DNA from: Pagrus major
Lineage: Eukaryota; Chordata; Actinopteri; Spariformes; Sparidae
NCBI RefSeq assembly: GCF_040436345.1
Contig: NC_133223.1
Coordinates: 30,181,493 to 30,245,492, forward strand
Direction of reading: 5' to 3'
DNA length: 64,000 nt
The translations under genes were made by a program, and so were the position numbers. The stretch's first letter is position 1. Every line of letters begins with the position of its first letter. The notes beneath the pieces are model-generated. The model was not told the origin of the DNA. It did not search any database and saw only the letters and a list, made by a program, of their open reading frames with translations. Below, in pieces: positions 1-38,049 of this stretch.

Positions 1-45
1 CCTTGTGATTAACAACATTAAACTGCTTTCTGTTCATCACAAAAA
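1..45 (+). other. 3' end of an upstream PRR13-like gene copy
   Basis: The first bases match the last part of the 3' UTR of genes A and B: a TTGTGATTAACA block followed by ATTAAA at 17-22 and a TTCATCA stretch where cleavage would be expected. This shows that the tandem gene family continues to the left of the window. No coding sequence of this copy is visible, so its product and integrity are unknown. Confidence 0.6.
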
Positions 46-560
46 AAGTCATTGCCTTGTCTCTTTATTGTCATCTAAAAAAAAATAAAAAATATCCGTA
101 TCAGAAATACTTGATTAAGCCCTGAATGGAATCTGGGTTACAATAGAGTTGCTCCTTCCAGAAAAGAAATGTCACAGTATAATGAAATTGTAAGAAAATA
201 TAAAACTTGAGAACATAATAAATAAGGGTTTGCACAAATAGAAATTTGGTCGAGGGGTTGAATCAGACCTGTGGCCCCTTTGCTGCATGTCATCCTCTCT
301 CTCTCTTCTGGCTTTCCTGTCAACTCTTCAAGCTGTCATGGCAAATAAAGGCACTACAAAGCCTAACAAAATATGCAAAAAAGAAAAAAAAAGTGGCCTT
401 CCTTTGGCTTGCTGAGTGTCTGGAGCGTCACTAATCAATCTATTCTTGTTCTGAGAGATAAAGTCTGTCCTATGCAAGAAATTGAAGGTTTAAAGATCTC
501 ACACAATAGTGTGTAATATTCTGGCTATCCTGTGCCTTTTCCTGAGGTTTCCTCTATCCA
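46..560. repeat. Intergenic; dispersed repeat scrap at about 274-395
   Basis: There is no gene here. Positions 274-395 (CCCTTTGCTGCATGTCATCC, a CT-rich run, then GCAAATAAAGGC) resemble the 3' part of a repeat I recognise as common in teleost genomes. The family name is not assigned. The rest is AT-rich with no recognisable content. Confidence 0.4.
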
Positions 561-574
561 CTGAGGTGATGGGA

Positions 575-690
575 TTGTGATTTTGGGCTGTATAAATAAA
601 ACTGATTCGACTGGACACAATAATGAGCCCTGAGGGACACCACATATGTCAACTTTCCTAGATGTATAGTATCCCAAGAGAAAATTGTTG
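575..690 (-). mobile_element. LINE reverse-transcriptase fragment (decayed)
   Basis: On the minus strand, positions about 655-618 read I-C-G-V-P-Q-G-S-L-L, the conserved GVPQGS block of non-LTR retrotransposon reverse transcriptase. The same block, degraded to GLPEGS, recurs at about 4165-4195 beside a YADD motif. Only a scrap is left, with no open reading frame around it. An L2/CR1-like element is the best guess. Confidence 0.55.
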
Positions 691-1204
691 TCGTTTTAGA
701 TGAGATGTGACCGTCCTTCTTACCCATGTGAACCAGTCACTTCTCAAGCCTTTCCAATAGGATCTTGCCCTTTCACAACGTGTCTATCTTATTTTGTGTT
801 TGGTAGGCCAACACAAAATAACATCAATACCCATAAAATGCACTTCACTGCATTATATGTTCAGGCATACTTTTTGCAACATGCAGTACACAAAATAGTG
901 GCGTTAGAGATATGATTATTCCATAACAAACACAATGGGGCAAAATTATGGACAATATACAGTGCATAAAATAATGAGGCAGTTATCTGTATGGATACAT
1001 ACATTTTTGTATGTGAGCTGTGGTTATGATGGATTGTTGGTATTAATGAAAATAATGAGAGGATGAATATTACATGTGTACTGTGGTGAAGGGATGGGGC
1101 AATGGAATAAGTAAATGCTATTCATTAATGACTTTGCAAAGTAAAATATATATAAAATTTAATAAAACAGAAACAGCATCATTCAAGTTGTTCCCTGATT
1201 AATT

Positions 1205-1470
1205 TTACAGTCCTGTTAAGGAGCTAAGTTCATTGCGAGGATTACAGTGTTACTCAACCTGCAAATATGAAAAAGGGGAACAAATATAAATGTGACATTT
1301 CTTTCTCCTTTCAACATTCAGAGGGGGTAAACTTTTCCTTTTTCACTCTGGATATGTAGCAATGTCATGGTCACTTCAATAGAAAAGAGGAGAGAGGCTT
1401 ATAACACAGTTTTTCCCTGGTACTGTAAAAAGAGGATGCAGTGTTTATTGTGAAATGTGATGTATTGAAA
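1205..1470 (+). repeat. Dispersed repeat, copy 1 of 3
   Basis: The block runs from ACTCAACCTGCAAATATGAA to a TTGTGAAATGTGATG end. It recurs upstream of gene C on the opposite strand (about 14640-14850) and, diverged, inside lss intron 16 (about 25560-25800). The lss copy shows that it is a mobile or dispersed element and not only part of the gene-family duplication. Class unknown. Confidence 0.55.
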
Positions 1471-1834
1471 GTATTGTGATTAATAAGATATGACAGCAGT
1501 GAACATGCATTTTAGATGAGTTACATTTATACTCTTTGAAAACATCTTTAAAAAGACAAGTAAATTGTATGTAAGCTAATGCATGATGCAGGGGTTTACT
1601 ACCAGGGAGTTATTGTGAGCAAAAATTATGATTCGGTTTATTTAATAATTGTTTTTGTTTGTTTTTCAATAAATGTCAATTACAAACACGCACAAAACAA
1701 AACAATTAATTTGCTATTTTACCTATTTTGAGTCCATCTTAACAAATGTTAAGTTTTGCTGTCTTTTCCTTTTAAATACTTTAATAATTTTATTTCTTTT
1801 CTTTTTTTTCTTCTTTTTTTTTAATTTTCAGGTT

Positions 1835-1990
1835 TGTACAGTTGGTTGGACAAAACAAATATTGTGAAAGTGTCACTGGGCTCTGATCAATTCTGATGGC
1901 ATTTCTCAGTATTTCACCAATTTTTACAAAACATGGAGAAAATAATCAGCAGATTAATCCATAACGACAACAATCATTAGTTGCTGTCCT
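1835..1990 (-). mobile_element. hAT-like non-autonomous element fragment
   Basis: Read on the minus strand, this resembles the teleost element that begins GCTGCAACTAATGATT and carries internal landmarks such as CCCAAAGTGAC and TTGTCCAAC. Landmarks here are CAACAATCATTAGTTG near 1968-1983, GTCACTGGG near 1872 and GTTGGTTGGAC near 1840. The same insertion is present at the matching place upstream of C (13610-13935) and, shortened, upstream of B and B', so it predates their duplication. Confidence 0.55.
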
Positions 1991-1994
1991 ATAC

Positions 1995-2195: not shown

Positions 2196-2216
2196 CCTCT
2201 CTGTCCCGTGGCTTCC

Positions 2217-2223
2217 TATAAAA
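2217..2223 (+). promoter_or_regulatory. TATA box and non-coding exon 1 of gene A
   Basis: TATAAAA lies within CTTCCTATAAAAGCAGAG, a core shared with genes B, C and E. Exon 1 would start about 25-30 bp downstream and end at 2272 before GTAAGAAA. It carries no start codon in frame with the protein. Confidence 0.75.
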
Positions 2224-2520
2224 GCAGAGCCAGTTCACTGCTGTCTGTTCATCGCTACTCCAGCATTTCACAGTAAGAAACTTTCTGAGCATGATTACCA
2301 CAAAATATCTGCATGTGCCTATCACTTTGTGTGAAGTGATTGATCGATCATCTTGTATTTCCTATGTTAACTGTATTGCATTATTCATGTCTTTATCAGA
2401 GAGACGTATCCTACTGATCTGTATATACAAACATTGGTGACATGGTTTTCTCATATTAAGATGGTGTTTGTTTGTTTGCTTCTTTCATTTCAGCGTTTGG
2501 ATCTCTTCTGAACTTCCAAA

Positions 2521-2802
2521 ATGCACCCAGGTAAAAAACTCACGTGTTGTAACTGTACTATTATTATGTTAGGAGCAAACTGACATCATGTCTTTACAAA
2601 GAAACAAACAATGTTGATTCCCACTCCTTTTGTTTGACCAGGAATGCCCAGAGCAATGCCACAGGTATGCCCTCCAGGTCCATACTATCCTAAACCCAAT
2701 GGTACATACCAACCTCAAATTGCTATATGCCCACCTCACCCAGGTCCATACCCTACTCCTCCTTCATTTGGTCCATGTCCAATGGGACCAGTGTGGCAAT
2801 AA
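2521..2802 (+). CDS. Gene A: short Pro-rich PRR13-like protein, tail lost
   Basis: Coding exons are 2521-2530 and 2642-2802, giving 56 aa. Exon 2 starts at 2494 after TTTCATTTCAG, and its ATG is the first in the mRNA. The junction falls in phase 1 within a Gly codon, as in all family members. The product starts MHPGMPRAMPQ, is rich in Pro, Tyr and Cys (CPPGPYYPKPNG, ICPPHPGPYP), and ends GPVWQ with TAA two bases before the conserved splice donor at 2805. It has no His-rich section, no CHKK motif and no Ser/Asp tail, which longer relatives carry. The last exon (from 3012) is therefore 3' UTR. No signal peptide or membrane segment is seen. It could be a functional short paralogue or a decaying copy; the intact promoter, splice sites and polyadenylation signal favour transcription. 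Function unknown. Confidence 0.6.
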
Positions 2803-3011
2803 GGGTAAGACCCAGTTGAGTCACTGATGAATATAAAGTGCAAACTTATTTGTCAGCTAAAACTAATGCAGTCTACTACAAGAGTCCAGCATTAAATCCT
2901 CCCTTCATGAAGGTTATAATGTTAAGTTTTTGTTGAAACTTAATTAACCAACTAATTGACGTGTTTTTAGTAAATTAAATGTTAATGTTTGTCTCTACTG
3001 TCGTCCTCCAG

Positions 3012-3240
3012 CAGCTCTTGCAGCTCTGATGAGATGAACATGTCCGAATGGGAGGAGAAACAAGACCAGTTTCCACCTGGAAACCTTCATCCTGCTTCCT
3101 TTAATGATAGTAATCAGTTTATTTGACCACCTGTATTTTGAAGCATGTGTTTCATGTGACCCTCTGTATGCTTTTGAATTAGACACTGATCAAAATGGTT
3201 CCTTTGTGATTAACAGCATTAAACTGTTTTCTGTTCATCA
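3012..3240 (+). terminator. Gene A last exon (non-coding) and polyadenylation signal
   Basis: The acceptor is CTCCAG ending at 3011. In genes C-F the acceptor TAG lies directly before TCCTC (two conserved bases upstream of the CCAG); here that TAG reads TCG, so the exon is expected to start about 9 bases later. ATTAAA at 3218-3223 is the probable polyadenylation signal, in a block also seen in gene B and at the left window edge. Confidence 0.65.
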
Positions 3241-3728
3241 CCAATGCAAGTCATCTCTTTATTTGTATTTTCTTACCTTACTGGCTAAATTTGTCTAAAA
3301 ATTAAATATTAAATCATTCATAAAGCAAAACTGATTTGCTGGTTCTAGCTTCTTGAGTGACAGTCTGTCTGGTTTTGACAGTTTTTCTCTTTTATATCAT
3401 TGTAAATTGAACATCTTGGGGTATTTGACTTCTTGTTCAACTCAACTAAATCTCTCCAGAGGTCACCTTGGACTCTATAAACTTGTGATATGCAATTTTA
3501 ACATTTCTCTGACATTTAGTAGCCATGACAGCTAACAAATTGATCAAACACAAGAGACAGGATTGACGGATAATAAAATGATAGTTGCAGCTATGACCTT
3601 TATGTATATCTTTTTTTATCCTTAGGAATTTGACACACAACAAAACAACTTGAGCCAGGAAAGAAAGAGCAGACTACCAAGGCCTCTTATCTAGTTCATC
3701 TTTGACTACTGACTTGAATACTGAAAAT

Positions 3729-3742
3729 GGCGCCCCCTGGTG
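3729..3742 (-). promoter_or_regulatory. CTCF-like motif downstream of gene A
   Basis: GGCGCCCCCTGGTG is the reverse complement of the CTCF core CACCAGGGGGCGCC. An identical 14-mer lies at the corresponding place downstream of gene B (9276-9289). Motif match only; binding is inferred. Confidence 0.5.
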
Positions 3743-3849
3743 TGAGATCATAAATAGCAGGGGGAAATAAGGCGATTGTTAATAAATGTGCATGAAAAGT
3801 CACGTAGAACTTCTGTATGTAACGAAAGTAACAATATTACAATTTGATA

Positions 3850-4215
3850 TGTAGTAGTAGTAGCAGTAGTAGTAGTAGTAGTTTCAGGATTCAGTTTTAG
3901 GTACAACTGTGTGTCATCAGCGTAACTATGATAACATAAATTTTATTTGCAGAGTAACGTACAAACCAAAGTGCAGTGGAACCAATAAAGTCCACGAAAG
4001 TAACAATATAATATCAACAACTCTGTCACAATATAACAACAAAATAATAACAATATAATAATTTGATATGTAGTAGTGGTACAACTGTGTGTCATCAGCG
4101 TAACTATGATAACATAAATTTTATTTGCAGAGTAACGTACAAACCAAAGTGCAGTGGAACCAACAATGAGCCCTCAGGGAGCCCACATATAATGTCCACC
4201 TTCCTGGATGTATAA
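3850..4215 (-). mobile_element. LINE reverse-transcriptase fragment, internally duplicated
   Basis: On the minus strand, 3929-3905 and 4107-4083 read C-Y-H-S-Y-A-D-D-T, the catalytic YADD block of a non-LTR reverse transcriptase. About 4195-4165 reads a degraded GVPQGS block. The stretch 3901-3985 is repeated almost exactly at 4079-4163, an offset of 178 bp, so YADD occurs twice. Short TAG-repeat and AT-rich insertions separate the copies. Non-functional remnant, L2/CR1-like. Confidence 0.65.
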
Positions 4216-4689: not shown

Positions 4690-5035
4690 TTTCTTGATTT
4701 CTCATTCGAGACTCGACTCCTGAAAGACGCAACTAAACTTGAGACTTGAGTCACCGAAGACAAGGGACTTAAGGCTTGAGTCCTAAAAGACTTTTGAGAC
4801 TTTCCTCCCTGAAGAATTGTTTTCAGACTTTGATCCCAAAGGCCTGACTTCCGACTTGACTCCTTAAGGAACCGGCTTGATATTTGAGACTTGACTCCTG
4901 AAAGACAAGACTGAACTTGAGACTTGACTCACCAAAGACTGGACTTGAGACTCGAGGCTTGAGTCCTCAAAGACTGGGCTTGTCATTTGAGACTTGACTT
5001 TCTAAAGTTTTGCCCCTATAAAGATGTGACTTGAC
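4690..5035 (+). repeat. ACTTGA-type degenerate minisatellite (upstream of gene B)
   Basis: Imperfect units of about 20-40 bp repeat the theme GAGACTTGACTCC-TGAAAGAC. The same theme occurs upstream of gene C on the opposite strand (14195-14620) and upstream of gene D (29998-30500), each time in the orientation of the neighbouring gene. Confidence 0.65.
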
Positions 5036-5124: not shown

Positions 5125-5283
5125 ATTTTCTTGATTTGTGAACACAGGACAGCATCACACATCTAATTAGAAGATACACCTTCAAAAGTTTTGGTTTCTT
5201 GGTTACTCTTGGTTTTAATAATTAGACTTTTGTATTTTAACTCTCTTAATGGTTTCTGAAGTTTGAGAAATACGAAGAAGAAG

Positions 5284-5315
<32 letters not shown>

Positions 5316-5515
5316 GAAGAACAAGAACAAGATCTAAAACGTTCTGCATTTTGAGAGTGTTACAACACAGGTATCGACACACTCACACTCCCACACTGTA
5401 CTCCCACCAGCAGCAAATACACTTGAGAAACAGTGAAAGATCATCAGAGTTCAAGTCAGAGTCAGGACTCACAACAGTTCAAGTAAATGATACAAGTTCA
5501 AGTCAGTGGCACGGA
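5125..5515 (+). repeat. Duplicated block, copy 1, with GAA microsatellite
   Basis: The block from ATTTTCTTGATTTGTG through the GAA run (5274-5312) and the CACACTGTACTCCCACCAGC stretch is repeated at 6235-6580 about 1.07-1.11 kb downstream. It reads as a tandem segmental duplication between genes A and B. Glu-rich or Leu-rich open frames across the GAA runs are microsatellite artefacts. Confidence 0.75.
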
Positions 5516-5859
5516 CACTGATGTTCTGATGAGGGTAAAAGAGTTGGGTGACCCGCAGGCAAAGATCGAAGGAGACTTATCACATGGCAATTGTTTCAAG
5601 CAAAAATGCAAAGCTTTTGTCTGCAAGATTTGACGTCTTAAGTAAAGTGAATATCTGTGAGTGTTTTGGTTGTACGGAACAAGCTATTTGAATACAGCAA
5701 CTGAGGCAAATAACACTTTTGGTTTGTAGACTGTCAGAAAATGAATTGGCTATTTTAACTATTTTGATAATCATTTGTCACTTTGTATGTATCCAGCCTA
5801 AAAAATGTCATGGTTTGCTGCTGATTTTTTAAAATACATTAAAAAAAAAAAGGATTCTT

Positions 5860-6238
5860 ATTTTCAGGTTTGCACAATTGGTTGGACAACACATGACACA
5901 CTTTTACTTTTAATACTTTTTAAGTACATTTTCCTGATTATACTTACATACATGTTCAATACAGGAGTTTGACTTGTAACAGAGTATTTTTACAAAGTGG
6001 TACTAGTACTTTTACTTAAGTAAAGGATCTGAGTACTTCCTCTTCCACTGCCAGGGTCCTGATCCAATTGATCATTTACATTCAAACTACCTCTCAGAAG
6101 TTTGGGGTCAGTTAGAAATGTCCTCATTTTTGAAAGAAAAGCATAAATGTTTTAAAATTTACTTGACGGACTAATTGATATGTTTTTAGTGAACAAAAAG
6201 TCAATGTTTGTCTCTTCTGTCGTCCTCCAGCAGCATTT
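5860..6238 (+). pseudogene. B': decayed family copy (promoter flank joined to last-exon start)
   Basis: Positions 5863-6050 match the flank just upstream of the B promoter (7122-7306), including the hAT end TTCCTCTTCCACTG, but no TATA core follows. After about 100 bp holding a Tc1-like terminal scrap (6090-6150, around AAGTTTGGGGTCAGTTAGAAA), 6158-6238 matches the end of intron 3 and the start of exon 4 in genes A and B (ATGTTTGTCTC then TGTCGTCCTCCAGCAGC). Exons 1-3 and the core promoter are gone. This is a deleted gene-family copy with no coding capacity. Confidence 0.6.
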
Positions 6239-6580
6239 TCTTGATTTGTGAACACAGGACAGCATCACACAGCCTCTTGATTTTAATAATTAGACTTTTG
6301 GATTTTAATTCTCTTAAATGTTTCTGAAGTTTGAGAAATACGAAGAAGAAGAAGAAGAAGAAGAAGAAGAAGAAGAAGAAGAAGAAGAAGAAGAAGAAAT
6401 AAAAAAGTTCTGCATTTTGAGAGTGTTACAACACAGGTATCGACACACTCATGCTCCCACACTGTACTCCCACCAGCAGCAAATACACTTGAGAAACAGT
6501 GAAAGATCATCAGAGTTCAAGTCAGTCAGGACTCACAACAGTTCAAATAAATGATACAAGTTCAAGTCAATGACACTGAC
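6235..6580 (+). repeat. Duplicated block, copy 2, with long GAA microsatellite
   Basis: Second copy of the 5125-5515 block. The GAA run here (6342-6398) is longer than in copy 1. One end abuts the B' exon-4 remnant, so one duplication breakpoint lies at about 6235. Confidence 0.75.
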
Positions 6581-6599
6581 ACTTATGTTCACATCTCCA

Positions 6600-7037
6600 A
6601 TTGCTTTAATTTATTGATATGCAAGCATAGTGAATCTGCTTTTCTTACCAACAGCACCTTCAACTTTTAGCGTGTTTTGGTTGTATGAAAAAAGCAATTT
6701 TGATACATCATCACAGGCTGAGAGAAATTAAGAGATATTTGAAAAAGTATTTTGGATGTTTTTCAATAAACTTCAAAAGTATTGAAATGTCAGTACACAT
6801 CGATATTTTATATTAAAAGTTATGATAGTCATGATAACACTAATATAGACTTTTGCTTGCTTACAGAGTAATAAGGTTTTGAAATGTTTGGACACAACCG
6901 AAGCAAATAACACTTTTAGTTCATAGACTGTCAGAAAATGAATTGGCTATTTAAACTATTTTGATAATAGTTTGTCATTCTTTATGTATCCAGTTTAACA
7001 CATGTAAAGAATTGCTGCTGTTCCTTTAAAGTACTTG

Positions 7038-7118
<81 letters not shown>

Positions 7119-7195
7119 TTTTCAGGTTTGCACAATTGGTCGGACAACACATGGAGTACTTTTATTTTTAATACTTTAAGTACATTTTCCTGATA
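6600..7195. repeat. Gene B upstream flank with hAT-derived pieces and a TA microsatellite
   Basis: About 6900-7020 repeats 5710-5800 (CAAATAACACTTTTAGTT, then GAAAATGAATTGGCTATT). A pure TA dinucleotide run occupies about 7039-7113. The sequence that follows (TTTTCAGGTTTGCACAATTG) equals 5862-5881 in B' and resembles 1826-1845 in A. These are remnants of the hAT-like insertion shared by A, B and B'. No gene is visible. Confidence 0.55.
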
Positions 7196-7306
7196 ATACT
7201 TACATACATGTTCAATGTAGGAGTTTGACTTGTAACAGAGTATTTTTACAGAGTGGTACCAGTACTTTTACTTAAGTAAAGGATCTGAGTACTTCCTCCT
7301 CCACTG
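7196..7306 (-). mobile_element. hAT-like MITE end abutting the gene B promoter
   Basis: Same terminal segment as at 1995-2195, ending CCTCCTCCACTG at 7306. The TATA box begins at 7328, leaving exactly 21 bp between element end and TATA as in A and C. Confidence 0.6.
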
Positions 7307-7327
7307 CCTGTCCGCCCTGTGGCTTCC

Positions 7328-7334
7328 TATAAAA
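7328..7334 (+). promoter_or_regulatory. TATA box and non-coding exon 1 of gene B
   Basis: CTTCCTATAAAAGCAGAG core. Exon 1 is expected at about 7355-7382, ending in CACTCA before GTAAGTTC, the same donor context as genes C and E. Confidence 0.78.
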
Positions 7335-7657
7335 GCAGAGCCAGTTCGCTGCTGTGTCAGTGAATCTGCACTCCAGCACTCAGTAAGTTCACTAGTAGCT
7401 CTCTGGGCATAATTATATGATGTAATTGCAAAATGTAATACTTCTGACCTGCATTGCCTGTTTTCTAATATTTAACAAATACGCTGTCTTTTCCACAGTG
7501 GACTGAAGATGCTTTCTTTCTACAAAATATAGCATTTTATGTTATACAACGGCTTTAATCTGCATTTGTGTAAAAATATGTTCTTATTTTTCTCATGTTA
7601 AATGGGTGTTGTTTGCATCTTTCATTTCAGCGTTTGGATCTGATCTGAAATTCAAAA

Positions 7658-8086
7658 ATGTACGGCTACAGCGGCGCTAACTCAGGTAAAGAAGTCAAAT
7701 GCAGTAACATTTTTTTGTTACTTTTCACTTTCACTAAAACTCCGTCCTCGTCCTTTTTGTCAAACGTTCTTCACTGAATTTTAAGGAGCAAATTTACATC
7801 AAGTTTATACACAGAAAAAGAGAAAATGATGAGCCTCCTCCCTTTTGTTTGACTAGGTAACCAAGGAATGCCCAGATACCCTGGAGCATACCCAGGAGCA
7901 CCAATACCAGGAGCACCAATACCAGGAGCACCAATGCCAGGAGCACCAATGCCAGGAGCACCAATGCCAGGAGCACCAATGCCAGGAGTACCAATACAAG
8001 GAGGAATGCCTGGAAGAATGCCTGGAGGAATGCCTGGAGGAATGCCTGGAGGAATGCCTGGAGGACCAGTGCCTCGGAGGTTTTGA
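7658..8086 (+). CDS. Gene B: PGAPM/GGMPG-repeat PRR13-like protein, tail lost
   Basis: Coding exons are 7658-7685 and 7857-8086 (85 aa). Exon 2 starts at 7631 after TTTCATTTCAG. It encodes MYGYSGANS and joins in phase 1 through a Gly codon to exon 3, which starts [11 protein letters not shown]. Residues about 21-54 are five-residue PGAP[IM] repeats (15-bp DNA units), and about 58-79 are GGMPG repeats (12-bp units). The protein ends P-R-R-F with TGA 26 bases before the conserved donor at 8113, so the CHKK motif and Ser/Asp tail of the family are absent and exon 4 (from 8526) is non-coding. No signal peptide is seen. Fully spliced gene structure, TATA box and polyadenylation signal support expression. 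Function unknown; the repeats suggest a disordered or extended protein. Confidence 0.68.
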
Positions 8087-8525
8087 TATCACTCGGGTCC
8101 TGAGCAGTAAAGGTAAGATCCAGTTGATTTACTGATAAATGTACAATGCAAATCATTGAATGTTTATTGTACCAAAGTTAATACTGAGCGTCGGTCCACT
8201 GGCAATCGGTAACAGTTACATTTAAGTCTCATTAATTTCACGTATGCGATAAATCAAACTAGTTAGCTAGTAAAATGTTATTTGAAATAGTTTATTCTGT
8301 TCTCTTTTTACATTTATTTCTTTTTCCAGTCAGGCAATACACTAAGTTGTCAGTTTATTAGATCCACCAGCTAAAACTAATGCAGTCTAATACAAGAGCC
8401 CTGCTATAAATCCTCCCTTAATGAAGGTCATAATGTTCAGTTTTTGGTGAAATCTAATCAATAGACTAAGTGACATGTTTTTAGTGTATTAAAATTCAAT
8501 GTTTGTCTCTGCTGTCGTTCTCCAG

Positions 8526-8775
8526 CAGCTCCTGCAGCAGCGCCTCTGAACAGATGAAGATGTCTGAATGGGAGGAGAAACAATACCATTTTCCTCCGGA
8601 CACCTTCATCCTGCTTCCTTTAATGAAAATAATCAGTTAATTTAACCACCTACCTTTTAAATCATGTTTTTTGTGCAACATACTATGCTTTTGATGATTT
8701 AGACACTGATTATAATTGTTCCCTTGTGATTAACAACATTAAACTGCTTTTCGCTCATCATTAAAGCAACAGTGC
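8526..8775 (+). terminator. Gene B last exon (non-coding) and polyadenylation signal
   Basis: The acceptor is CTCCAG ending at 8525, with the ancestral TAG acceptor again changed to TCG. ATTAAA is at 8738-8743 in the same TTGTGATTAACAACATTAAA context as at the left window edge. Confidence 0.65.
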
Positions 8776-10640
8776 CTTGTGTCTTTATTCTCTTTTTTAT
8801 TTGATCACATTGGCAATACGTTTAATAATCAATTAAACATTTAAATTATTCATTAAACAAAATTAATTTGCTGTTTCCAGCTTCTTTAGATTGACAGTTT
8901 GGTGTTTCTCTGTTTTATATCAACGTCGATTGAACATATTTAGGTACTGTACTTTTTGTTATAACAAACCAGAAATTTCCTGGCATCATCTTGGACTCTA
9001 AACTTGCAATGGGCATTTTCTCTGACATTTCACAGCCTTGACAGCTACTCAGTTGATCAAAAAAGTGACTGATTAACTGTTGATAAAATAATAATAATGT
9101 TTTTAAATTATATCATATTCTTAGAACATATAATCTACATTTGTCCTTGGGAACTTAACACATAGCAAAAAACTCAACTGAGCCAGGAAGGAAAAGTAGA
9201 CTACCAAGGCCTCTCCTCTGGCTGTTTCAAAATTCAGAGTCTATTTTTGACTTCTGACCTGAATGTACTGCATATGGCGCCCCCTGGTGAGGTCATAGAT
9301 ATCAGGAGAGGTCAGACGATGTTAACAAGTGATCATAATAAGACATGTAGAACTCATTTTTGTAATGCAAATAACTACATAACGTGTTGATTAATAACTG
9401 CAATGTGATTATTGAATTTAGAAGAAGGTCAGGTATAAATGTGTGTCATCAGCGTAACTATAAAAACAGCAGGTAACAGTGTTTACCCCTAAAAGCGAAA
9501 AGGGAAACGTAAGAGGCTGATGCATCATTCAGCAAAAGAGCATTTGGACCTGCTGAAATGTGCATCCACCTGTTTTTCACTCAGGAAGGCTATCACATAT
9601 ATGAAATTGTCAAGCTTGAGTCAAACAGCCCAGAATATGAGCAGGTAACACCGTTGACCATATAAAGTTTCGGAAAAGAACCTTAAGAGGGGGAAGCATT
9701 ATAAAAACTCTCACATTTATGACATTTTCAAGTTTGAGATGTGTATCCACCTGTTTTTTCAGGATAGATGAGAGTTAGAGTTAGTTAGTTATGAAATTCT
9801 CAATGTGGAGTCAAAACAGCCCAGAATCTGAGCTGGTCACAGTGTTTCACATTAAAGAGCTTGAAAAGATACTTAAGAGGTGAGAACTGACACTGTCACA
9901 GGTTCCTGGAAGAACAACCCCCCAGCGACAGTGAAGCTGCCCCCCAGCGACACAAAGACCATTAAACAAACTTGTTGTTGTAGAAATGGTTTTGCCCCTA
10001 ATGCAGATAGATAGTGATGAGGTTGAAAATGTGCAAAAAGTCTTGCTCAAAGACTTTGCTTATGACTTGCACACGTGTAACTTACTCCCACCTCTGTCCA
10101 GGTCACTAAAAGTAATTTTATTTTCAAATGGTGGTTTGACAAAAAAAAACAACAAATTATCACAGACTTTCAATACAATCAAACTAACGAATGAATAAAA
10201 TCAATGAAGCCACTTGATTACACAAAAAGTCCCCCTTAACATAAAAACATTTATTTTTCTCAAAATGCAGATTTAAGCAGTATTTAAATATACACTTGAG
10301 ATTTTGCTACAGTTCATAATTATTTATATATGTTTTTGTTGCCATGTGACACCAGATAAACAACAATTTTGGACTGGACTAAGTTGTACCATATAGGTTG
10401 ACATTGTGTGGTTTTGTTTTCTGTCAAAATTAATCATTGATACCATCCACTCTAAGATATGTGTCTTTTACACTCAGATTTTTGAAAATGTCCCGGCACC
10501 ATCTACTGGTGTTATCGACGCTGAGACTGTGCCAATATCACAGCCAGACCCCACCCCCCCTTTCCTCACATCCAACTGGGATTTTCCCTGTTTTGTTTCA
10601 ATCTACACAAAAGTTAAGAAAAGCCAACACAGCCACCCAA
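8776..10640. other. Intergenic between genes B and C (convergent ends)
   Basis: There is no gene. Contents are a CTCF-like GGCGCCCCCTGGTG at 9276-9289, a LINE YADD scrap on the minus strand at about 9431-9470, and a tandem duplication of about 135 bp (9555-9690 and 9736-9877, offset 181-191 bp) marked by ATCCACCTGTTTTT and CAGCCCAGAAT. The remainder (9880-10640) is AT-rich with no recognised element. The short open frames at 10406-10739 lack any family likeness. Confidence 0.5.
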
Positions 10641-10660
10641 ACAACTCTGTTTACACTTCA

Positions 10661-10666
10661 TTTATT
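10661..10666 (-). terminator. Polyadenylation signal of gene C
   Basis: AATAAA on the minus strand, about 145 bases beyond the stop codon of gene C. Confidence 0.55.
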
Positions 10667-10809
10667 ACACAAGTATTTCATTAAAGGCCGTGTGATTTTC
10701 TATGTTTTGGACCAAGAACCTTTTTTAGGTCATATGTGATTCTTGAGTTGAGGATGAAGATTTCCAGGTTGTAACTTGTCCTCGTTCTTCTTCGTCGAGG
10801 AGTCTTCAT

Positions 10810-13060
10810 CTACTCAGAGTCACTGGTGCAGGGGCTGCTGGAGGACTACAGAGAATATGAACACGAAAGAAAAAAACGTCAGAGCGATTACACATACCAA
10901 TATTTGCTGTAAGAATCATTTAAAAATATTTTAATGCAAATGGTTTTTGGTAGATGAGGGAATCACTGAATAGATATATGGATGTTATGTATAGACGTTA
11001 TAAACTTGAAAGGTGATATTTCAGGCTTAAAATACTCGGATGCATGTAAATTCCTTGCTGCTCCTGTCAACAGTTCCATCTAGTGGTTATTTTTGACATT
11101 TTAATGATATTTCCTACTTTTCTGGGACATTTCCTGACAATGTTGATAAGCTACACTATTCATCAAATATTTTATGACAGATTTTAAGCATTTTGCATAG
11201 AACTGAAACTAATGATTACTGTATGTGCTATTGATAGTTTGGTTTGAAATAAATCAGAAAGTATCCACAGTAACACATTTACTTTCTCTGTTTTCAACCA
11301 AAAGTCCAAACATCGAAATTGTTAACATTTAATTAAATTATTCAAATAAATACAAGGAAAGGCTGCAAATCTTCACATTTGTGAAACTGGAATTATGAGA
11401 ACTTAATTAAAAGATTAACAAACAAAAACAGTTGACAACTGATCGTTTCAGCTGTACTTTTACATACTGTTGGGTCGATTTATTTGCTGTAACAAAACTT
11501 TTCATAAGCTCTTCAAATGTCTGCTTAACTCTTAACTTGTAACGTATCTGCCAGAAGCAGTCAGATCCGTATAGCTGAGTAAAATGTAAAAATGCTTCAT
11601 GTTTCTCTGAATTCTGAACAAAATGTCAACACTGTTGAATCTTACCCCGCTGCACTCCTTCCCCTTCTTGTGACAATCGACATGCTTGTGGCCGAGCTTG
11701 TGCCTGTGCTTGTGTTTCGGTTTATCTTCCTGTTTAAATTCACCAGCAGGTCCACTGCCACCATGCTGGTCATGGCCTCTGAGCTGTCCACTGCCACCAG
11801 TCTCTTCACTGCCTCCATTCTGTCCACTGCCACCAGTCTGTCCGCTGCCACCAGTCTGTCCGCTGCCACCAGCCTGTCCACTGCCACCAGTCTGTCTGTT
11901 GCCACCAGCCTGTCCGCTGCCACCAGTCTGTCCGCTGCCACCAGCCTGTCCGCTGCCACCAGTCTGTCCACTGCCACCAAAGTTTCCACAGCCACCATAG
12001 TGTCCACAGCCACCATAGTGTCCACAGCCACCAAAGTGGCCAATGCCACCAAAGTATCCACTGCCAACAGTCGGTCCACTGCCACCAAACTGTCCACTAC
12101 CACCAAACTGTCCACTACCACCAAACTGTCCACCACCACCAAAGTATCCACTGCCAACAGTCGGTCCACCCCCACCAAACTGTCCACTGCGACCAAACTG
12201 TCCACTACCACCAAACTGTCCACTACCACCAAAGTATCCACTGCCAACAGTCGGTCCGCTGCCACCAAACTGTCCACTGCGACCAAACTGTCCACTGCCA
12301 CCAAACTGTCCACTGCCACCAAACTGTCCGCTGCCACCAGTCTGTTCAATACCACCAAACTGTCCACTGCCACCAAACTGTCCGCTGCCACCAGTCTGTC
12401 CACTACCACCAAAGTGTCCACCTCCACCAAACTGTCCACTACCACCAAACTGTCCACTGCCACCAGTCTGTCCACCACCATCAATCTGTCCACTGCCACC
12501 AGTCTGTCCACTCCCACCAGTCTGTCCACCTCCACCAAACTGTCCACTGCCACCAGTCTGTCCACCACCACCAATCTGTCCACCACCACCAATCTGTCCA
12601 CTACCACCAAACTGTCCACTGCCACCAAACTGTCCACTACCACCAAACCAAGGACCGAAGTTCCATCCGTTCCACCAACTAGGTCCTGGTCCATACCATC
12701 CAAAAGATGGGGCTACAGCAGGACAGCAAACAGGTGGACAACAGGACTGTGTAGAAGAGTTGTTGCATTGTTCCATCCATGGTGGACATTGAGGATATCT
12801 TCCTTGCACTGGCTGAGGATAACAGCCAAAGGGATACCGGTATCCTGGTTAAACAAAAGAGATGAGGCTCACATTTTTCTTTTTTAGTTGGTAGAAAACA
12901 TGGTATACATTGTTGCTAATTAAAATTCAATAAAGACAGTTTGCATAGTGTTTTAGTATAAGTGACAAAGACTGAAAATTAACAGAAGACAGTGTCAACA
13001 AGTAGGTTCTTTACCTGTGTTAGTGATGTTATAGCCAAACTTTGGAGAATTTCCAATCAT
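10810..13060 (-). CDS. Gene C: long GGSGQ-repeat PRR13-like protein
   Basis: Coding exons on the minus strand are 13060-13015, 12844-11646 and 10845-10810, giving 426 aa. The ATG at 13060 follows acceptor TTTCAG at 13070. Exon 2 encodes MIGNSPKFGYNITNT and joins in phase 1 through Gly. Exon 3 starts GYRYPFGCYPQP, has a Cys-rich patch (QSCCPPVCCP, residues 48-57) and a Trp/Gly-rich stretch (65-82). It then has about 45-50 six-residue repeats of the type FGGSGQ / TGGSGQ (about 82-375), a Lys/His stretch (KHKHRHKLGHKH, about 392-403) and the family motif DCHKKGKECSG (405-415). Exon 4 adds only SSSSPCTSDSE. The Ser tail and CHKK motif recall PRR13. No signal peptide or membrane segment is present. 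It is the only inverted and by far the longest member. The repeat exon is open in several frames on both strands because the unit is 18 bp. Function unknown; the repeats suggest an elastomer-like or phase-separating disordered protein. Confidence 0.75.
11200..11455 (+). mobile_element. hAT-like element fragment in gene C intron 3
   Basis: Landmarks of the GCTGCAACTAATGATT element are present in diverged form: AACTAATGATTACTG near 11206, GCTGCAAATCTTCACATTT near 11362 and AGTTGACAACTGATCG near 11430. The remainder of intron 3 (10846-11645) shows nothing recognisable. Confidence 0.45.
11750..12645 (-). repeat. 18-bp coding minisatellite of gene C
   Basis: About 45-50 units whose plus-strand form is CTGTCCACTGCCACCAAA or CTGTCCACTGCCACCAGT. 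Each encodes six residues on the minus strand. A longer periodicity is visible where groups such as FGGSGPTVGSGYFGG recur (three times between about 12040 and 12260), evidence of block duplication inside the array. Confidence 0.85.
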
Positions 13061-13264
13061 ATCTGAACTCTGAAATGAAAGAAGCCACTTAATTACACAA
13101 AAATCCTGTTTTTACACGAGAAAATAAATAACTTTTTAATTTTTTTTTTATTGAGTTAAGCAGTTTTAAAAACCAAAATGCTAAATTATGGGGAAAGAAA
13201 GCATTTGCAGTCCACTGTAGACAGTTTGTTTTGTTAAATGTAGAAAAACAGTAAGTGAACTTAC

Positions 13265-13319
13265 TGAGTGCTGGAGTGCAGATCCACTGACACAGCAGTG
13301 AACTGGTTCTGCTTTTATA
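13265..13319 (-). promoter_or_regulatory. TATA box and non-coding exon 1 of gene C
   Basis: TATAAAA is at 13319-13313 (minus) in the CTTCCTATAAAAGCAGA core. Exon 1 is expected at about 13290-13266 and ends at 13265 with CACTCA before GTAAGTTC, as in B and E. Confidence 0.75.
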
Positions 13320-13340
13320 GGAAGCAACGGGGCGGACAGG

Positions 13341-13939: not shown

Positions 13940-14190
13940 CATAATATCAGGTGTGAAATGTACAGTATGTGTTTGTAAATAAAATAATTATTTAAAAAAA
14001 TGCCAGTTGCACAGTAACTTCCTACAGCCTGAGGTGATGTATTCAAAAAGCTTGTTTTATGCTCCCAAAACACTCTAATGGTCGACCATATTCAGTTTCA
14101 AAACCTAGTTAAACATCAATGAAAGAAATTTCAACAATAGGAGACTGTTTCACACTCGCTCACTAGTCTGTGGTAGTAAAGTTTGTTCAG
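13940..14190. other. Gene C upstream flank, no gene
   Basis: AT-rich sequence with no recognised element. Part (around TGATGTATTCAAAAAGC at 14036) resembles the inverted form of about 6690-6720 near gene B. Confidence 0.3.
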
Positions 14191-14194
14191 GTCT

Positions 14195-14639: not shown

Positions 14640-14850
14640 TACACAGTCTCAATATTAAACATCACATTTCACAACACACACTGCATCCCCTTTTTACAGT
14701 ACCAGGGAAACATGAAGCTACTGGGTGGGTAAACTTTTTCTATTGAAATGACCGTAACATTGCTACACATCCAGACATACAGAAATGTCACGTTAATATT
14801 TGTTCCTCTTTTTCATATTTGCAGGTTGAGTCACACTGAGACTCCTCACA
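14640..14850 (-). repeat. Dispersed repeat, copy 2 of 3
   Basis: Inverted counterpart of 1225-1460: TTTCACAACACACACTGCATCC, TTTTTACAGTACCAGGGAAA and CATATTTGCAGGTTGAGT are recognisable. It belongs to the inverted duplication with the gene A flank. Confidence 0.5.
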
Positions 14851-17736: not shown

Positions 17737-27910
<10,174 letters not shown>

Positions 27911-29997: not shown

Positions 29998-30500
29998 CTC
30001 AAACATGAGGATTTGAGACTTGAGCTCCTCAGAAGCTTGACTTGAGAATTGAGACATGAATCCCTGAAGACCGGATTTCAGACCAGACACAACTTGATTT
30101 GACAACTGAGACTTGACTCCCTAAAGACTTGACCTAACCCAGGACTTGAATCCTTTAAGACTTGATAATTAAGTCTTAACTCCCAAAATAGTTGACTAAA
30201 CCCAATCCTTGAATCTCAAAAGACTTGACTTGAGACTCGAGGCTTGATTGCTTTAAAACTTGACTTGATATCTGAGACTTGACTCCCTAAAGATTTGACC
30301 GAACCAAAGACTTGAATCCTGAAAGACCTAACCTAAGACTCTTGATTGAGTCCTGAAAGCCTCGACATTTTTGAGTCGACTCCCTAAAGACTAAACTCAG
30401 GAACTGAATTTCCTAAAAATTGACAAAAGTCAAGACTTCCTGAAAGAATTGACTTGAGACTTGACTTAAGACACAAGAGCAGAGACAACAAGCCTTAAGA
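29998..30500 (+). repeat. ACTTGA-type minisatellite upstream of gene D
   Basis: Imperfect units such as GAGACTTGACTCCCTAAAGA and GACTTGACTTGAGACTC. Same theme as upstream of B and C. It ends about 340 bp before the gene D TATA box. Confidence 0.65.
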
Positions 30501-30835: not shown

Positions 30836-30891
30836 TATAAAGGGAGCAGCAGGTGAAAGCTGCATCAGTGGATTTTCTCTTTCCAAACCAG
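30836..30891 (+). promoter_or_regulatory. TATA box and non-coding exon 1 of gene D
   Basis: TATAAA at 30836-30841, within GTGTGGCTTAATATAAAGGG. Exon 1 ends at 30891 before GTAAGTTCACC. The core differs from the CTTCCTATAAAAGC core of A, B, C and E, although the GTGTGGCTT lead is shared with E. Confidence 0.7.
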
Positions 30892-31329
30892 GTAAGTTCA
30901 CCTCTAATACTACATTGTTGTGCATATCACACCTTGAATTGCCTTACACTTGTATTTTCCTAATCCTAAGTGTTTTGTAAAGATGTTTTTCAGGTGTATT
31001 TTTATTCAGTAACACTAAAATAACCATCATTAATAAATTAGTAGAATCAAACTTTAGTTAAGTCATTATTTCACTGTTAACAAACCACAAAATGCTTAAC
31101 AAACCATTTCTTAAGAAATAGTTTATTGTGAAGTTGCACCTTATGTGTATAATAATAATAATAATAATCATTTGGATGGACAATTATGAAGTTCAAACTG
31201 ATGTTTAATTAACTATGCAATGAGAATTTATTAAGTGATGGTTATTATAAAGTGTTACCATTTAGTCTTGTGTAAAAGTCTTATTTGCTCAAGTGAGTTT
31301 GTTCTTTCTTCAATTTCAGGATTTTCGAC

Positions 31330-32205
31330 ATGTCTGACGACGGTAAACAACACACTTGGTTTTGGTTCATCCTCACTTCGTTCTTTCAAATATATTGAAT
31401 TTGTATTACATACTTGACACTTGCAGTTGCTAACTATTGATTTATGACAAATTACAGAACGTCGTTGTGGTAAAGGCGAGGGCCATAAAAAAAAACATAA
31501 ACATGGACATAAACATAAACATGGACATAAACATGGACATGGACATGGTGGCTGCCATGGACAAAAACATGGACAGAAACATGGACATGGACCTGGGTGC
31601 AAGAATAAACACAGGCACAGGGCCGGGCACAGGCATCGCAAGTGTCACAAGAAGGATAAGGACTGTCACGGGGTAAGAGCCAGTAGTGTTCAGTTCATTC
31701 ACAAGAGAAAGTTGATTTTGTTCAGAATTCAGAGAAACAATAAGCATAAATGTTTGTGCAGTCCAAATGAAAACTGATCACAGAAATGCTCTGCCATCGA
31801 TGTTAAAGGTTAGTTATTGAGGGGGAGAGCAGTGAATACAAGTGCAGTTCCACACACTCACAGACATGAATGACATGTAGGATTTCTTCATGCACGTCTA
31901 AAAGCAACTTTGTTACATGCATTTTGTTGAGTTGTGCACTTACAGCATCCCAAATATTTTCCCACAATGTACAAGCCGAGAGAAATCTGGAGGAGTGAAC
32001 CATTGACTCTCTGCACTCCGATCAAAAACTAAAAGTTGATTAAGAAGGGTTATAATCATTCTGTCTCTTTTGTCAAGGATTGAATCATAGTCTGTCATCG
32101 CTGATTGACTTTTTCTGTTTGTTTTCCTCCTGCTTGTAGTCCTCTAGCAGCTCCTGCTCATCCAGCAGCTCCAGCTCCAGCTCATCGAGCAGTGACTCTG
32201 ACTAG
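31330..32205 (+). CDS. Gene D: Lys/His/Gly-rich PRR13-like protein
   Basis: Coding exons are 31330-31342, 31458-31672 and 32140-32205, giving 97 aa. Exon 2 begins at 31320 after CAATTTCAG. It codes MSDD, then phase 1. Exon 3 lacks the Pro-rich section of the other members. It reads ERRCGKGEGHKKKHKHGHKH, continues with KHG/GHG repeats to about residue 55, then RHRAGHRHRKCHKKDKDCHG (residues 57-76), whose end is the family motif. Exon 4 encodes 21 residues, almost all Ser with one Cys, ending DSD: the longest tail in the cluster and the closest to the PRR13 C-terminus. His and Cys suggest metal binding (inference). The acidic start and basic body suggest an intracellular protein, and no signal peptide is seen. 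Polyadenylation signal AATAAA at 32353-32358. Confidence 0.75.
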
Positions 32206-32352
32206 ATGACGACTCCTCGCCAGGACGTTCATCCTCCTACACCAGAATCTCACATGACCCACAACAGTTCTTTGTGACTCAATAAGCCTCAAATGTATAT
32301 TCTTGGTCCTAAACATGTAAACTCCAGAGTTGTCACTGATTGTATGTCCTTG

Positions 32353-32358
32353 AATAAA
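32353..32358 (+). terminator. Polyadenylation signal of gene D
   Basis: AATAAA about 150 bases after the stop codon, in CTTGAATAAAACAC. Confidence 0.7.
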
Positions 32359-32490
32359 ACACTAATCAAATAAATAAATGAAGTGAAAACAGAAAAACAT
32401 TGGCTGGCTGTATTTGCTTTTCATAACTTGTATTGAAGTCATTGAAGATTGAAACGGTCACTGTAACAAACAGTGTTGGTGTTGATTCTG

Positions 32491-32546: not shown

Positions 32547-32601
32547 TATAAAAGCAGAGACAGTTCACTGTTGTGCCTGTCGATCTCTGCTCCAGCACTC
32601 A
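32547..32601 (+). promoter_or_regulatory. TATA box and non-coding exon 1 of gene E
   Basis: TATAAAA at 32547-32553 in the CTTCCTATAAAAGCAGAG core shared with A, B and C. Exon 1 ends at 32601 (CACTCA before GTAAGTTC). Unlike A, B and C there is no hAT element end upstream. Confidence 0.78.
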
Positions 32602-32913
32602 GTAAGTTCACGAGTAGCTATCTGGGCTTATTAACCATAAATTATGTGTGTGTCTTTGTGTGTGTACTGATGTTGTGTTTCCTTTTGCATTTCTGTCACC
32701 ACGTCTGTATTTATCTCAAGATCTCCTACTTCTGACCTGTGCTACCTGTTTTCTGACATTCATAACACACACTTTTGTTACAGTAGTGCAGTTTTCCTCA
32801 GTTGACTGCAGATGCTGTCTTTGTGAAAAGTTTTTTTTTCGCACGTTGAGAGAGGATTTGTCAGCAAATTCAGTGGCTTCTCTCATTTCAGGGTTTGGAT
32901 CTGAAATTCTGAA

Positions 32914-34748
32914 ATGTTCGGGAATAACAGAGGTAAATAAATCACTAGTTGTTGTAACTGTAAGTGTTTCATAACATGATAACTTACATTTTTTGTAACA
33001 AGAAGCTGTTCCTGTTTATTATTATATTATTATATACAATGTATCTTGTTACAACATTAAACTTTTATAACATTAAGATACATAGTATATTGTTATAACA
33101 TAACATTATCATTATCAACATTTTCTTGTTATAACAGTATAAGTTATCACAAAATAATGTGAAACATGTTATTACAGTATTTTAAAATGTGAAACACAAA
33201 CACAACGTTGATAAGATTAATAGTATATTGTTAAAACAAGAAAAGTTTCTTGATTTGAGTTTTTATTTCATAATCAATCTTGGTAATATCGTGTAATAAC
33301 TGAAAAAATGTCTTGTTATGAAGAGAAAACATCATGTCATAACAGTAAGTTTCACGTTTTACAATATATTTGACGTTATGTCGTGTTACTGATCCATTTC
33401 TGTTTTTTCTGGCATGGCAGCAATACCCTTTTTCACTGTTACTAGCCCATTCCCCGTCTTTATGTCAAACTGTCCTCATTTAACTTAAAGGAGCAAGAGT
33501 TGACATCAAGTGTATAAACAATAAAAAAGGAAATGATGAGCCCCACCCCTTTTGTTTGACCAGGAAACCAGTATCCCTCTGGCTGTCATCCTCAACCAGG
33601 AGGATACCCTCAATATCCACCAGGACCTGCCCAACCCCAACCCTGCCCTCCTCCGCCCTGTGATCCAGCCTATCCTCCACCCCCACCTTGTGGAGGGGGT
33701 GGAGGCCATGCTCATGGACCAGGGCCTGGTTATGGGCATGGACCTAGCTACGGTCCTGGGTACGGGCATGGACACGGACACGATCATGGTCATGATCATG
33801 GACATGGTCATGGGCACGGACATGATCATGGACATGGACATGATCATGGACATGGTCATGGGCACGGACATGATCATGGACATGGGCATGATCATGGACA
33901 TGGCCATCACGGTCATGATCATGGACATGGGCATGGCCATCACGGACATGATCATGGACATGGGCATGGCCATCACGGACATGGACATGGTCATCATGGA
34001 CATGGACATGGTCATCGTGGCCACAGGCACAGGCATGGTCACATGCATGGCCATTGTCATAAGAAAGGCAGGCAGTGTCATGGGGTAAGATCCAGTTGAA
34101 TTATCAATAAATGTAAAGTGAAATCGGTCCACTGATATTTAGTAAAAGTTGCATTTAAGCCATATTACATTATTAAATGCAGCAGCCACACCTGACAAAG
34201 AAAAACACATCAGTATCACCTTATAACGTTAAAAGGTTATTGTTAATTCTTTTTACAATTTAACAAGAATTTTCACCTTATTTAAAGAAAAAACATCAGA
34301 ATATACCAAGAAACTTCTCTCGTTATACCTCTGTTTTTATACTGTTAAATCTTTATGTTATAACATGATAACTTTTTTTATAACAGAACATTTCAGGTTA
34401 AAACGTGACGTTAACGTTATAATTTCTTGTTATAACATCAAAACACATTTTTATGTGAAAACATCTTGTTATAGCAATAAATTTGTCATGTTATAACGTG
34501 AAACTAATACATTATGTTTTTCTCACGTGGCGGCGTTATGCTTCTGTAAAAAAACAGAGAAGGAAAGCTAATACTTGTTTATCATTTGTCAGCTGTACAG
34601 ACGTGATTCCTAATGAACATAATGTTGCTTTGTGTGTGCTGGATATGTGAATAGCCAATTGTTTGCTGACATGTTGCAATAACTACATTTTGGTTTGTTT
34701 CTGCTGTAGTCCTCCAGCAGCTCCTGCAGCAGCAGCGACTCTGACTAG
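32914..34748 (+). CDS. Gene E: GHGHDH-repeat, His-rich PRR13-like protein
   Basis: Coding exons are 32914-32932, 33564-34084 and 34710-34748, giving 192 aa. Exon 2 begins at 32892 after CATTTCAG and encodes MFGNNR, then phase 1 Gly. Exon 3 begins [20 protein letters not shown], has a Pro/Cys-rich section to about residue 50 (PCPPPPC, PPPPPC), then GHGPGYGHG-type sequence. From about 70 to 160 it has dense His-Gly repeats with Asp at intervals ([20 protein letters not shown]), then [21 protein letters not shown] ending at 180. Exon 4 encodes [11 protein letters not shown]. Roughly every second residue over 90 positions is His, a strong candidate for Zn, Cu or Ni binding or pH-dependent behaviour (inference). 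The Pro-then-His order recalls PRR13. No secretion signal. Polyadenylation signal ATTAAA at 35075-35080. Confidence 0.78.
32985..33400. repeat. GTTATAAC-type palindromic motif array, gene E intron 2
   Basis: The self-complementary octamer GTTATAAC and close variants (GTTACAAC, TTTATAAC, GTTAAAAC, GTCATAAC) recur many times, often as TTCTTGTTATAACA. The same motif fills part of intron 3 of the gene (34220-34505). Confidence 0.6.
34220..34505. repeat. GTTATAAC-type palindromic motif array, gene E intron 3
   Basis: Variants include CTTATAAC, CGTTATAC, TGTTATAACATG, CTTGTTATAACATC and ATGTTATAACGTG. The motif matches that of intron 2, although the His-coding exon lies between them. Confidence 0.6.
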
Positions 34749-35074
34749 ATGAAGATGTCTGGATGGGAAGAGAAACCAGTCAAGATGCCACCTGGAAACC
34801 TTCAGCCTGCTGTTTTTTATATGAATTTGCAATTTAATTCAAAGCGTGTGTTTTAAAGCTTCTTTGCTGTTGTTTTGTTTTTTATATTTTTCTAACTTTG
34901 GGCCATTAAATGCAAAAAAAAAGTCATGTGTGGCTGTCACACACTATATTACCTCGTATGAAATGTTAGGTCAATACATTTTCAACACACAGCCCGTCTG
35001 TGTGACTCTGCTGACATCATTCAATGCATGACATATGATTTGATTTATTAGACACTAATCATAATCTTGTGATC

Positions 35075-35080
35075 ATTAAA
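35075..35080 (+). terminator. Polyadenylation signal of gene E
   Basis: ATTAAA in CTTGTGATCATTAAAAC, homologous to the GTGATTAACAACATTAAA block of genes A and B. Confidence 0.6.
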
Positions 35081-35109
35081 ACAAATAATCTCTACAACGC
35101 CTTGCCTCT

Positions 35110-36111: not shown

Positions 36112-36142
<31 letters not shown>

Positions 36143-36680: not shown

Positions 36681-36686
36681 ACTGCA

Positions 36687-36745
36687 CATAAAAAGGATCA
36701 GCAGGCGACAGCAGCTGCGTCTGCGGCTCTGCTCTCCAGCACACG
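36687..36745 (+). promoter_or_regulatory. TATA-like box and non-coding exon 1 of gene F
   Basis: CATAAAAA at 36687-36694 is a TATA-like element. Exon 1 is expected at about 36715-36745, ending CACACG before GTACGTTCACC. The core has diverged from the other members. Confidence 0.55.
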
Positions 36746-36879
36746 GTACGTTCACCTTTTACACCTTTCTGCTAAAGACTCGCTCTAAAATATGAAATCA
36801 TATTAAATGTGTGTTCATTTGATTAAAGTGCCTTTTTTTCCATCTTTCAGGATCTGTAGTTTCATCTGAAGTTTTAAAG

Positions 36880-37726
36880 ATGTACGGACACAACCAAGGT
36901 AAATAACACAACCGCTTTCAATCATTTTATTTCAATTTATTCCGACTTTAAGGTCCCATTGAGATACAAAACCTCCTTCATGGAGTTCAAGCGAGCGGAT
37001 AGTTTTAAGAATAAGGGACCTTTAAAAGACCTTTAAAGGTGTTTTCGAAGAGCGCTTCTAAGATTGTAAAATATGATTAATGTGCATTAAATACTTGATT
37101 TTATTTCTCTTTTCTCCTTATGTTTAGGAAACCAGTACCCTCCTGGTTACCCTCAACATCCTCAGCAGATGCCAGGAGGATACCCTAACTGTCCTCCAGG
37201 CACCGTCCCACCACCCAACTACCCTCCTCAGCCCCACGGGTACGGACCTGGACCTGGTTGTGGCCCAGGATACGGACCTGGCCATGGACACGGACCTGGA
37301 CAGGGACAATGCCATGGACAGGGCCATGGACAGGGCCATGGACATGGGCACGGACACGGACCTGGACACGGACAATGCCATGGACAGGGCCATGGACATG
37401 GGCACGAACATGGGCACAAGCACAAGCACAAGCATGGTCACAAGCATGGAAAGTGCCATAAGAAAGGAAAGCACAGTCACGGGGTGAGAGTCGCTCAATT
37501 TCTCCAAAGTTGTTTGTTTTATTAGCTCCAGAAATGTATATATATATATTTGTTGAGTCTTTAATTTATCTGTTTTTTTATTTTGGTTTTGGCAGTGTTG
37601 GTCCTCCATATGGTTTTAGCATTTTGTTTGTTTTGTAGATGATTGAATTTAATATTTGACGTGTTCGTGTTGTGTTTATTCTTGGTTTAGTCCTCCAGCA
37701 GCTCCTGCAGCAGCGACTCTGACTAG
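36880..37726 (+). CDS. Gene F: GPGHGQ/GHGH-repeat PRR13-like protein
   Basis: Coding exons are 36880-36898, 37128-37483 and 37691-37726, giving 136 aa. Exon 2 begins at 36851 after ATCTTTCAG and encodes MYGHNQ, then phase 1 Gly. Exon 3 starts NQYPPGYPQHPQQMPGGYP, has a Pro-rich part to about residue 45, a Gly/Pro/Cys stretch (GYGPGPGCGPGYGPG), then GHGQ/GHGH repeats with two copies of the GQCHGQGHG block. A Lys/His section (HKHKHKHGHKHGKCHKKGKH) follows, ending at residue 125. Exon 4 encodes [12 protein letters not shown]- and C-termini are closest to gene E. In order and composition this is the most PRR13-like member (inference). Metal binding is plausible from His and Cys content. No signal peptide. 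Polyadenylation signal AATAAA at 38023-38028. Confidence 0.78.
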
Positions 37727-38022
37727 ATGAAGACTCCTCAAGACCTCAAGCTGGCACCTGGAAAAACTCTATCCTCTATCCTAACATGTATTATAATCAA
37801 TATAGTTCTGCCTAAATGTTTCTTCTTCACATGTACTCTTAGAAACATATTTGTTTCAAAATGTATAAATGTTTGAAAATGATCCTAAATCAGCCGTGTC
37901 ATAATGTAGAATGAGCTTTTCTTAACATTTCATGACGTCGGTGTACAGTAAGAGACATTATTGTATCCATAATTGTGTTTGTGAGAAAAGATTTAAAAAG
38001 CTTTCTGTGCATGTTTAATGCT

Positions 38023-38028
38023 AATAAA
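38023..38028 (+). terminator. Polyadenylation signal of gene F
   Basis: AATAAA about 300 bases after the stop codon, in ATGCTAATAAATTAACAG. No nearer AATAAA/ATTAAA was found. Confidence 0.55.
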
Positions 38029-38049
38029 TTAACAGTTCAGTGTCTTGTG

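Follow-up and report, generated by a model that had tools for sequence, protein, structure and literature searches.

How can a row of neighbouring genes share one promoter and one splice plan while the exon in the middle keeps changing its repeat? The question is raised by a 64 kb window of Pagrus major contig NC_133223.1 (the window being the whole stretch of DNA analysed), the first 38 kb of which carry six four-exon gene models, here called A to F. An earlier, sequence-only reading had described these as an expanded tandem family resembling PRR13, with constant ends and exchanged middles. That description was partly confirmed: the array is real, and its constancy is less strict than claimed. 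The explanation to which we give a slightly better than even chance is that a PRR13-like gene was duplicated in tandem as a whole unit and that its repeat exon turned over fast.

Local duplication and repeat turnover are familiar from other gene clusters. A literature search on PRR13 in fish, the lss/hibch neighbourhood and the epidermal differentiation complex (EDC) in fish found no description of the array in the titles and abstract openings of the matches listed.

Structure of the Array

Genes A and B, on the forward strand, and C, an inverted copy on the reverse strand, lie to the left of lanosterol synthase, while D, E and F, again on the forward strand, lie between lanosterol synthase and HIBCH. 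Each neighbour was identified by one exon: lanosterol synthase at 27210-27377 (against PDB 1w6k, E 6e-27) and HIBCH at 41161-41292 (against PDB 3bpt, E 9.1e-12). In the turquoise killifish, PMC7462614 places two unnamed transcripts, XM_015941868 and XM_015941869, with lss and hibch at a major FST peak in a single region of chromosome 10. The two transcripts may be members of the array, a guess from their being named together with lss and hibch.

All six models have GT donors and AG acceptors throughout and an exon 2 that ends in phase 1, which bears out the proposed array of four-exon genes. The TATA-driven, non-coding first exon also stands, as a TATA-like motif occurs 55-59 nt upstream of every exon-1 donor (TATAAA in five genes, CATAAAA in F). 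The start codon lies in exon 2, the bulk of the coding sequence in exon 3 and, in C-F, the tail in exon 4. The start exon was said to end in a Gly codon; this is so in five genes, whereas the split codon of D encodes Glu.

Gene A (2217-3240) has its TATA motif at 2217, exon 1 ending at 2272, exon 2 at 2494-2530, exon 3 at 2642-2804 and exon 4 from 3012; we infer the positions of its exon 1 start and 3' end. Its product has 56 residues and no repeat. In gene B (7328-8765), with the TATA motif at 7328, exon 1 ends at 7382, exons 2 and 3 occupy 7631-7685 and 7857-8112, and exon 4 starts at 8526, giving a product of 85 residues with GAPMP and GGMP repeats. Gene C (10650-13324, reverse strand) reads from a TATA motif at 13319 through exon 1 (to 13265), exon 2 (13069-13015), exon 3 (12844-11646) and exon 4 (from 10845), and encodes 426 residues with 48 units of FGGSGQ type.

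Gene D (30836-32380) comprises a TATA motif at 30836, exon 1 to 30891, exon 2 at 31320-31342, exon 3 at 31458-31672 and exon 4 from 32140; the 97-residue product has a Lys/Gly/His repeat and a long Ser run. Gene E (32547-35095) starts with a TATA motif at 32547 and exon 1 to 32601, followed by exon 2 (32892-32932), exon 3 (33564-34084) and exon 4 from 34710, with ATTAAA at 34905 and 35075, and encodes 192 residues with a GHGHDHGH repeat. The last gene, F (36687-38045), has CATAAAA at 36687, exon 1 to 36745, exon 2 at 36851-36898, exon 3 at 37128-37483, exon 4 from 37691 and AATAAA at 38023; its 136-residue product carries a GHGQ/GHGP repeat.

Homology among the Copies and Remnants

Since a profile trained on the six known copies is circular when applied to them, such profiles were used for new places only, and homology was assessed by leave-one-out nhmmer searches, in which a profile from five copies was searched for the sixth (E-values refer to the 64 kb window). 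The promoter and exon 1 were recovered in six of six runs (E 8.6e-28 to 1.8e-5), as was exon 4 (E 1.8e-29 to 3.4e-8), D being the worst case in both. Exon 2 was recovered in five of six (E 1.1e-15 to 9.8e-6); the start exon of D was not (E 9.2), and its homology is not recognisable.

Self-BLAST connects the copies outside the repeats as well. A and B align over 1147 bp at 72% (2854-3936, from intron 3 to past exon 4), B and C around the promoter (86% over 246 bp), C and E in the promoters (86% over 74 bp), and B and E around exon 4 (82% over 119 bp). At the protein level, all six pairs within C-F score above all 200 local shuffles, and each of the nine pairs involving A or B is equalled by 26 to 199 of the 200, so that A and B belong to the family by their DNA only. 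There is thus good support for a local tandem family in which the transcription unit is common and the middle exon changes.

Parts of further copies are also present. The remnant and the 3' tip that had been predicted were both found by self-BLAST. The tip, at 1-72 on the forward strand, belongs to a copy extending to the left of the window; it has ATTAAA at 17 and 83% identity to 8722-8792, downstream of B. The remnant, at about 5900-6234 on the same strand, is an upstream promoter stretch fused to an intron 3/exon 4 border: 5860-6052 matches 7118-7308 at 93%, 6169-6234 matches 8464-8529 at 88%, and an exon 4 relic lies within it at 6209-6234 (E 0.0032, six-copy profile). A relic start exon at 6876-6911, forward strand, whose donor GT is lost, had been missing from the earlier inventory. 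It matches the six-copy exon-2 profile, which was not trained on it, with E 0.0019, and is the top outside match in five of six leave-one-out runs, the exception being the run with F left out.

Other repeated sequences are found in the window. Between A and B, 5206-5526 and 6274-6590 are a recent tandem duplication (93%) with GAA runs, adjacent to the 93% match of 5860-6052 and 7118-7308 mentioned above. A dispersed repeat of the acttgagacttgactcc type, with a period of about 35 bp, occurs at 4846-4999, 14165-14612 and 30091-30390, next to the array and on either side of lanosterol synthase. Another dispersed element is found at 1173-1463, 14643-14856 and 25532-25814 (68-69% alike), with one copy within the lanosterol synthase gene. 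A further dispersed sequence, with inverted copies at 18094-18259 and 53098-53266 (88% alike), occurs in the regions of lanosterol synthase and HIBCH. A 27-bp minisatellite at 60908-61542 has 23.5 copies with 85% matches, and several of its frames are open, on both strands; it is flanked by HIBCH-like exons and therefore probably intronic.

The C-Terminal Module and the Truncated Copies

The coding Ser...DSD end attributed to every gene is found in four of the six, as DSD in D, E and F and as DSE in C; the reading frames of A and B terminate within exon 3. Genes C-F have the signature CHKK[GD][KR]x[CS][HS]G-SSSSxC in common, in which the last junction separates the CHKK part from the SSSSxC that follows. 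In this module, which has 20 codons only, dN is lower than dS in all six pairs, the extremes being 0.12 vs 0.90 (D-F) and 0.25 vs 0.29 (C-D). The module looks constrained as protein.

In A, the stop (TAA at 2800) precedes the end of exon 3 by 2 nt; in B (TGA at 8084) the distance is 26 nt. Exon 3 of both genes ends in phase 2 instead of 0, and because both stop within this exon, their exon 4 is non-coding 3'UTR. The claim that ends and exon phases are kept therefore holds in four of six genes for the C-terminal end and for the phase between exons 3 and 4, in five of six for the start exon, and fails for the remainder.

The Repeat Exon

A single repeat exon per gene had been proposed. All genes except A have one; Tandem Repeats Finder reports no array for A's exon 3. 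The middles are quite different, as had been stated, in B and C, but not in D, E and F, which have related His-rich repeats (70% DNA identity for D-E and 71-72% for E-F).

The array in C consists of exactly 48 stop-free units of 18 nt, after which a Lys/His-rich end is retained. Stop-free arrays arose in 1.35% of 2000 simulations, which ignore that the units are not independent of each other. Several frames of the repeat are open, and open frames were rejected as support for C. Among 85 changed codons, 27 are synonymous (0.32, against 0.24 expected), a value reached by 5.1% of simulations and thus borderline, the units again not being independent. Substitutions are spread evenly over the codon positions (40, 33 and 36), which speaks against strong constraint in this array.

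It might be argued that most of the array is decaying, with F and E working and the other copies drifting as their minisatellites expand. The truncation of A and B, the remnants with the relic start exon, and the even variation of codon positions in C would all fit. However, splice sites and an open frame are kept in all six genes, the units in C are free of stops, and the module, with dN below dS, is still present in C and D, even if the difference between these two is small. The 50-nt rule relates the distance between a stop and the last junction to nonsense-mediated decay, and at 2 and 26 nt it predicts no such decay for A and B. We regard widespread decay as unlikely.

Under whole-unit duplication, one four-exon transcription unit (a TATA promoter and a very small non-coding exon 1, then start, repeat and serine-tail exons) would have been copied repeatedly. 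Every duplicate would arrive with its own promoter, and duplication could therefore give co-regulated genes at once; the common promoter suggests that the array proteins may be made together. Exon 3 would change fast by in-frame gain or loss of short units (6-18 nt), leading to Gly-Ser-Gln, Gly-Ala-Pro-Met or Gly-His middles. C-F would have retained the C-terminal module, and A and B would have lost it to a stop that closely precedes their final splice junction.

Possible Relationship to PRR13

Human PRR13 has a Pro-rich start, followed by Lys/His and then by Ser...DSD. This order, as given by a provisional human sequence, is best matched by F. The Pro-to-His order ascribed to the whole array is present in E and F and partly in C; it is absent from A, B and D, the last of which has no Pro-rich part. 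There are also differences, since the provisional human sequence does not contain the CHKK..C motif of C-F, and the array has Gly-His or Gly-Ser-Gln repeats in place of the PRR13 middle.

The six proteins were compared with this provisional human PRR13 sequence of 148 residues, using 300 shuffles within 15-residue blocks as a control. The score was equalled by 29 shuffles for A, 30 for B, 3 for C, 6 for D, 234 for E and 5 for F. When whole proteins were shuffled, it was equalled by 29 for A, 21 for B and none for each of C-F. The suggested resemblance to PRR13 thus appears to be favoured for F, C and D, which exceed most local shuffles with this provisional query, for E only under the weaker whole-protein control, and for A and B under neither. 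Kinship is no more than suggested by these results, and the link is weak to moderate.

According to PMC11911201, which refers to a rainbow trout study of 2010, PRR13 is encoded by four exons with three introns and has 187 residues, with ten serines at the C-terminus. Four exons are likewise found in the six models; the serine run, on the other hand, is coding in C-F only, where Cys residues break it up and its length is mostly below ten, and is lost in A and B. In ayu, a figure legend of PMC8389408 gives prr13, then pcbp2 and map3k12, while the array lies by lss and HIBCH. On the strength of this one legend, true PRR13 orthology was set aside: with the ayu prr13 located elsewhere, the array genes would be paralogs. 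They are probably paralogs of PRR13 and not PRR13 itself.

Possible Functions of the Array Proteins

The array proteins are small and, judged by composition, probably disordered. A simple hydropathy scan of the 40 N-terminal residues of each of the six gave a highest 12-residue mean of 0.57 and no hydrophobic start stretch; because this mean is so low, the proteins are probably not secreted, and a secreted SCPP or mucin type was set aside. A Pfam search at E up to 1 returned no matches for A-E. For F it returned TrAA12 (E 0.00089; 18.1 bits, where the cut-off is 30.9) and CFAP143 (E 0.33); neither reached its cut-off, and we read them as composition. Viral and prokaryotic collections gave 12 and 149 pattern matches to F, none of them confirmed, a result uninformative on fish.

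Two views of what the proteins might do are about equal. In the first, the array would encode PRR13-like regulators, with the constant end module acting in the nucleus and the repeat exon serving as a free spacer. TXR1/PRR13 is described as a transcriptional repressor of TSP1 (thrombospondin-1), and the constraint found here is located in the end module. However, A and B have no such module, kinship with PRR13 is no more than suggestive, and a mouse study reports that the traits tested were unaffected when Prr13 was conditionally removed from CD4 T cells. A regulatory role for the array is doubtful.

In the second, the array would be a convergent fish counterpart of the amniote EDC, made up of co-regulated intracellular structural proteins of the surface epithelium; we think this improbable. 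SPRR, loricrin and hornerin-like proteins are amniote EDC types. The Pro-, Gly/Ser/Gln- and His-rich middles of the array would take the roles of these, with PRR13 as the ancestral source at most, a correspondence that we again hold improbable. The copies are clustered, have TATA motifs and a non-coding exon 1, and show a strongly biased, fast-changing composition; the 43 Gln, 10 Lys and 13 Cys of C would suit cross-linking.

Published work describes the amniote single-coding-exon EDC genes with the same features, namely a TATA box, a non-coding exon 1, a local cluster and a biased, changing composition, and reports that homologs were not found in fish. In those genes the whole coding sequence lies in one exon, whereas the array has four exons and a split coding sequence. 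The distance from TATA to donor also differs, 55-59 nt here against the 60-90 nt applied to amniote genes in that work, and no S100 genes were seen adjacent, the neighbours tested being the lss and HIBCH exons only.

Implications

It is tempting to speculate, although the chance is small, that a fish-specific cluster derived from PRR13 has independently evolved the logic of the EDC, in which promoter and frame are common and the repeat exon may freely take on a Pro-, Gly/Ser/Gln- or His-rich composition, so that varied protein materials result. If the killifish transcripts XM_015941868 and XM_015941869 are members, the array would lie, going by PMC7462614, within a strongly population-differentiated region of that species. 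The locus displays in one place several stages in which a low-complexity gene is copied whole and its middle replaced, with the promoter and splice plan constant, and allows one to ask whether fish have a cluster of structural repeat proteins of their own.
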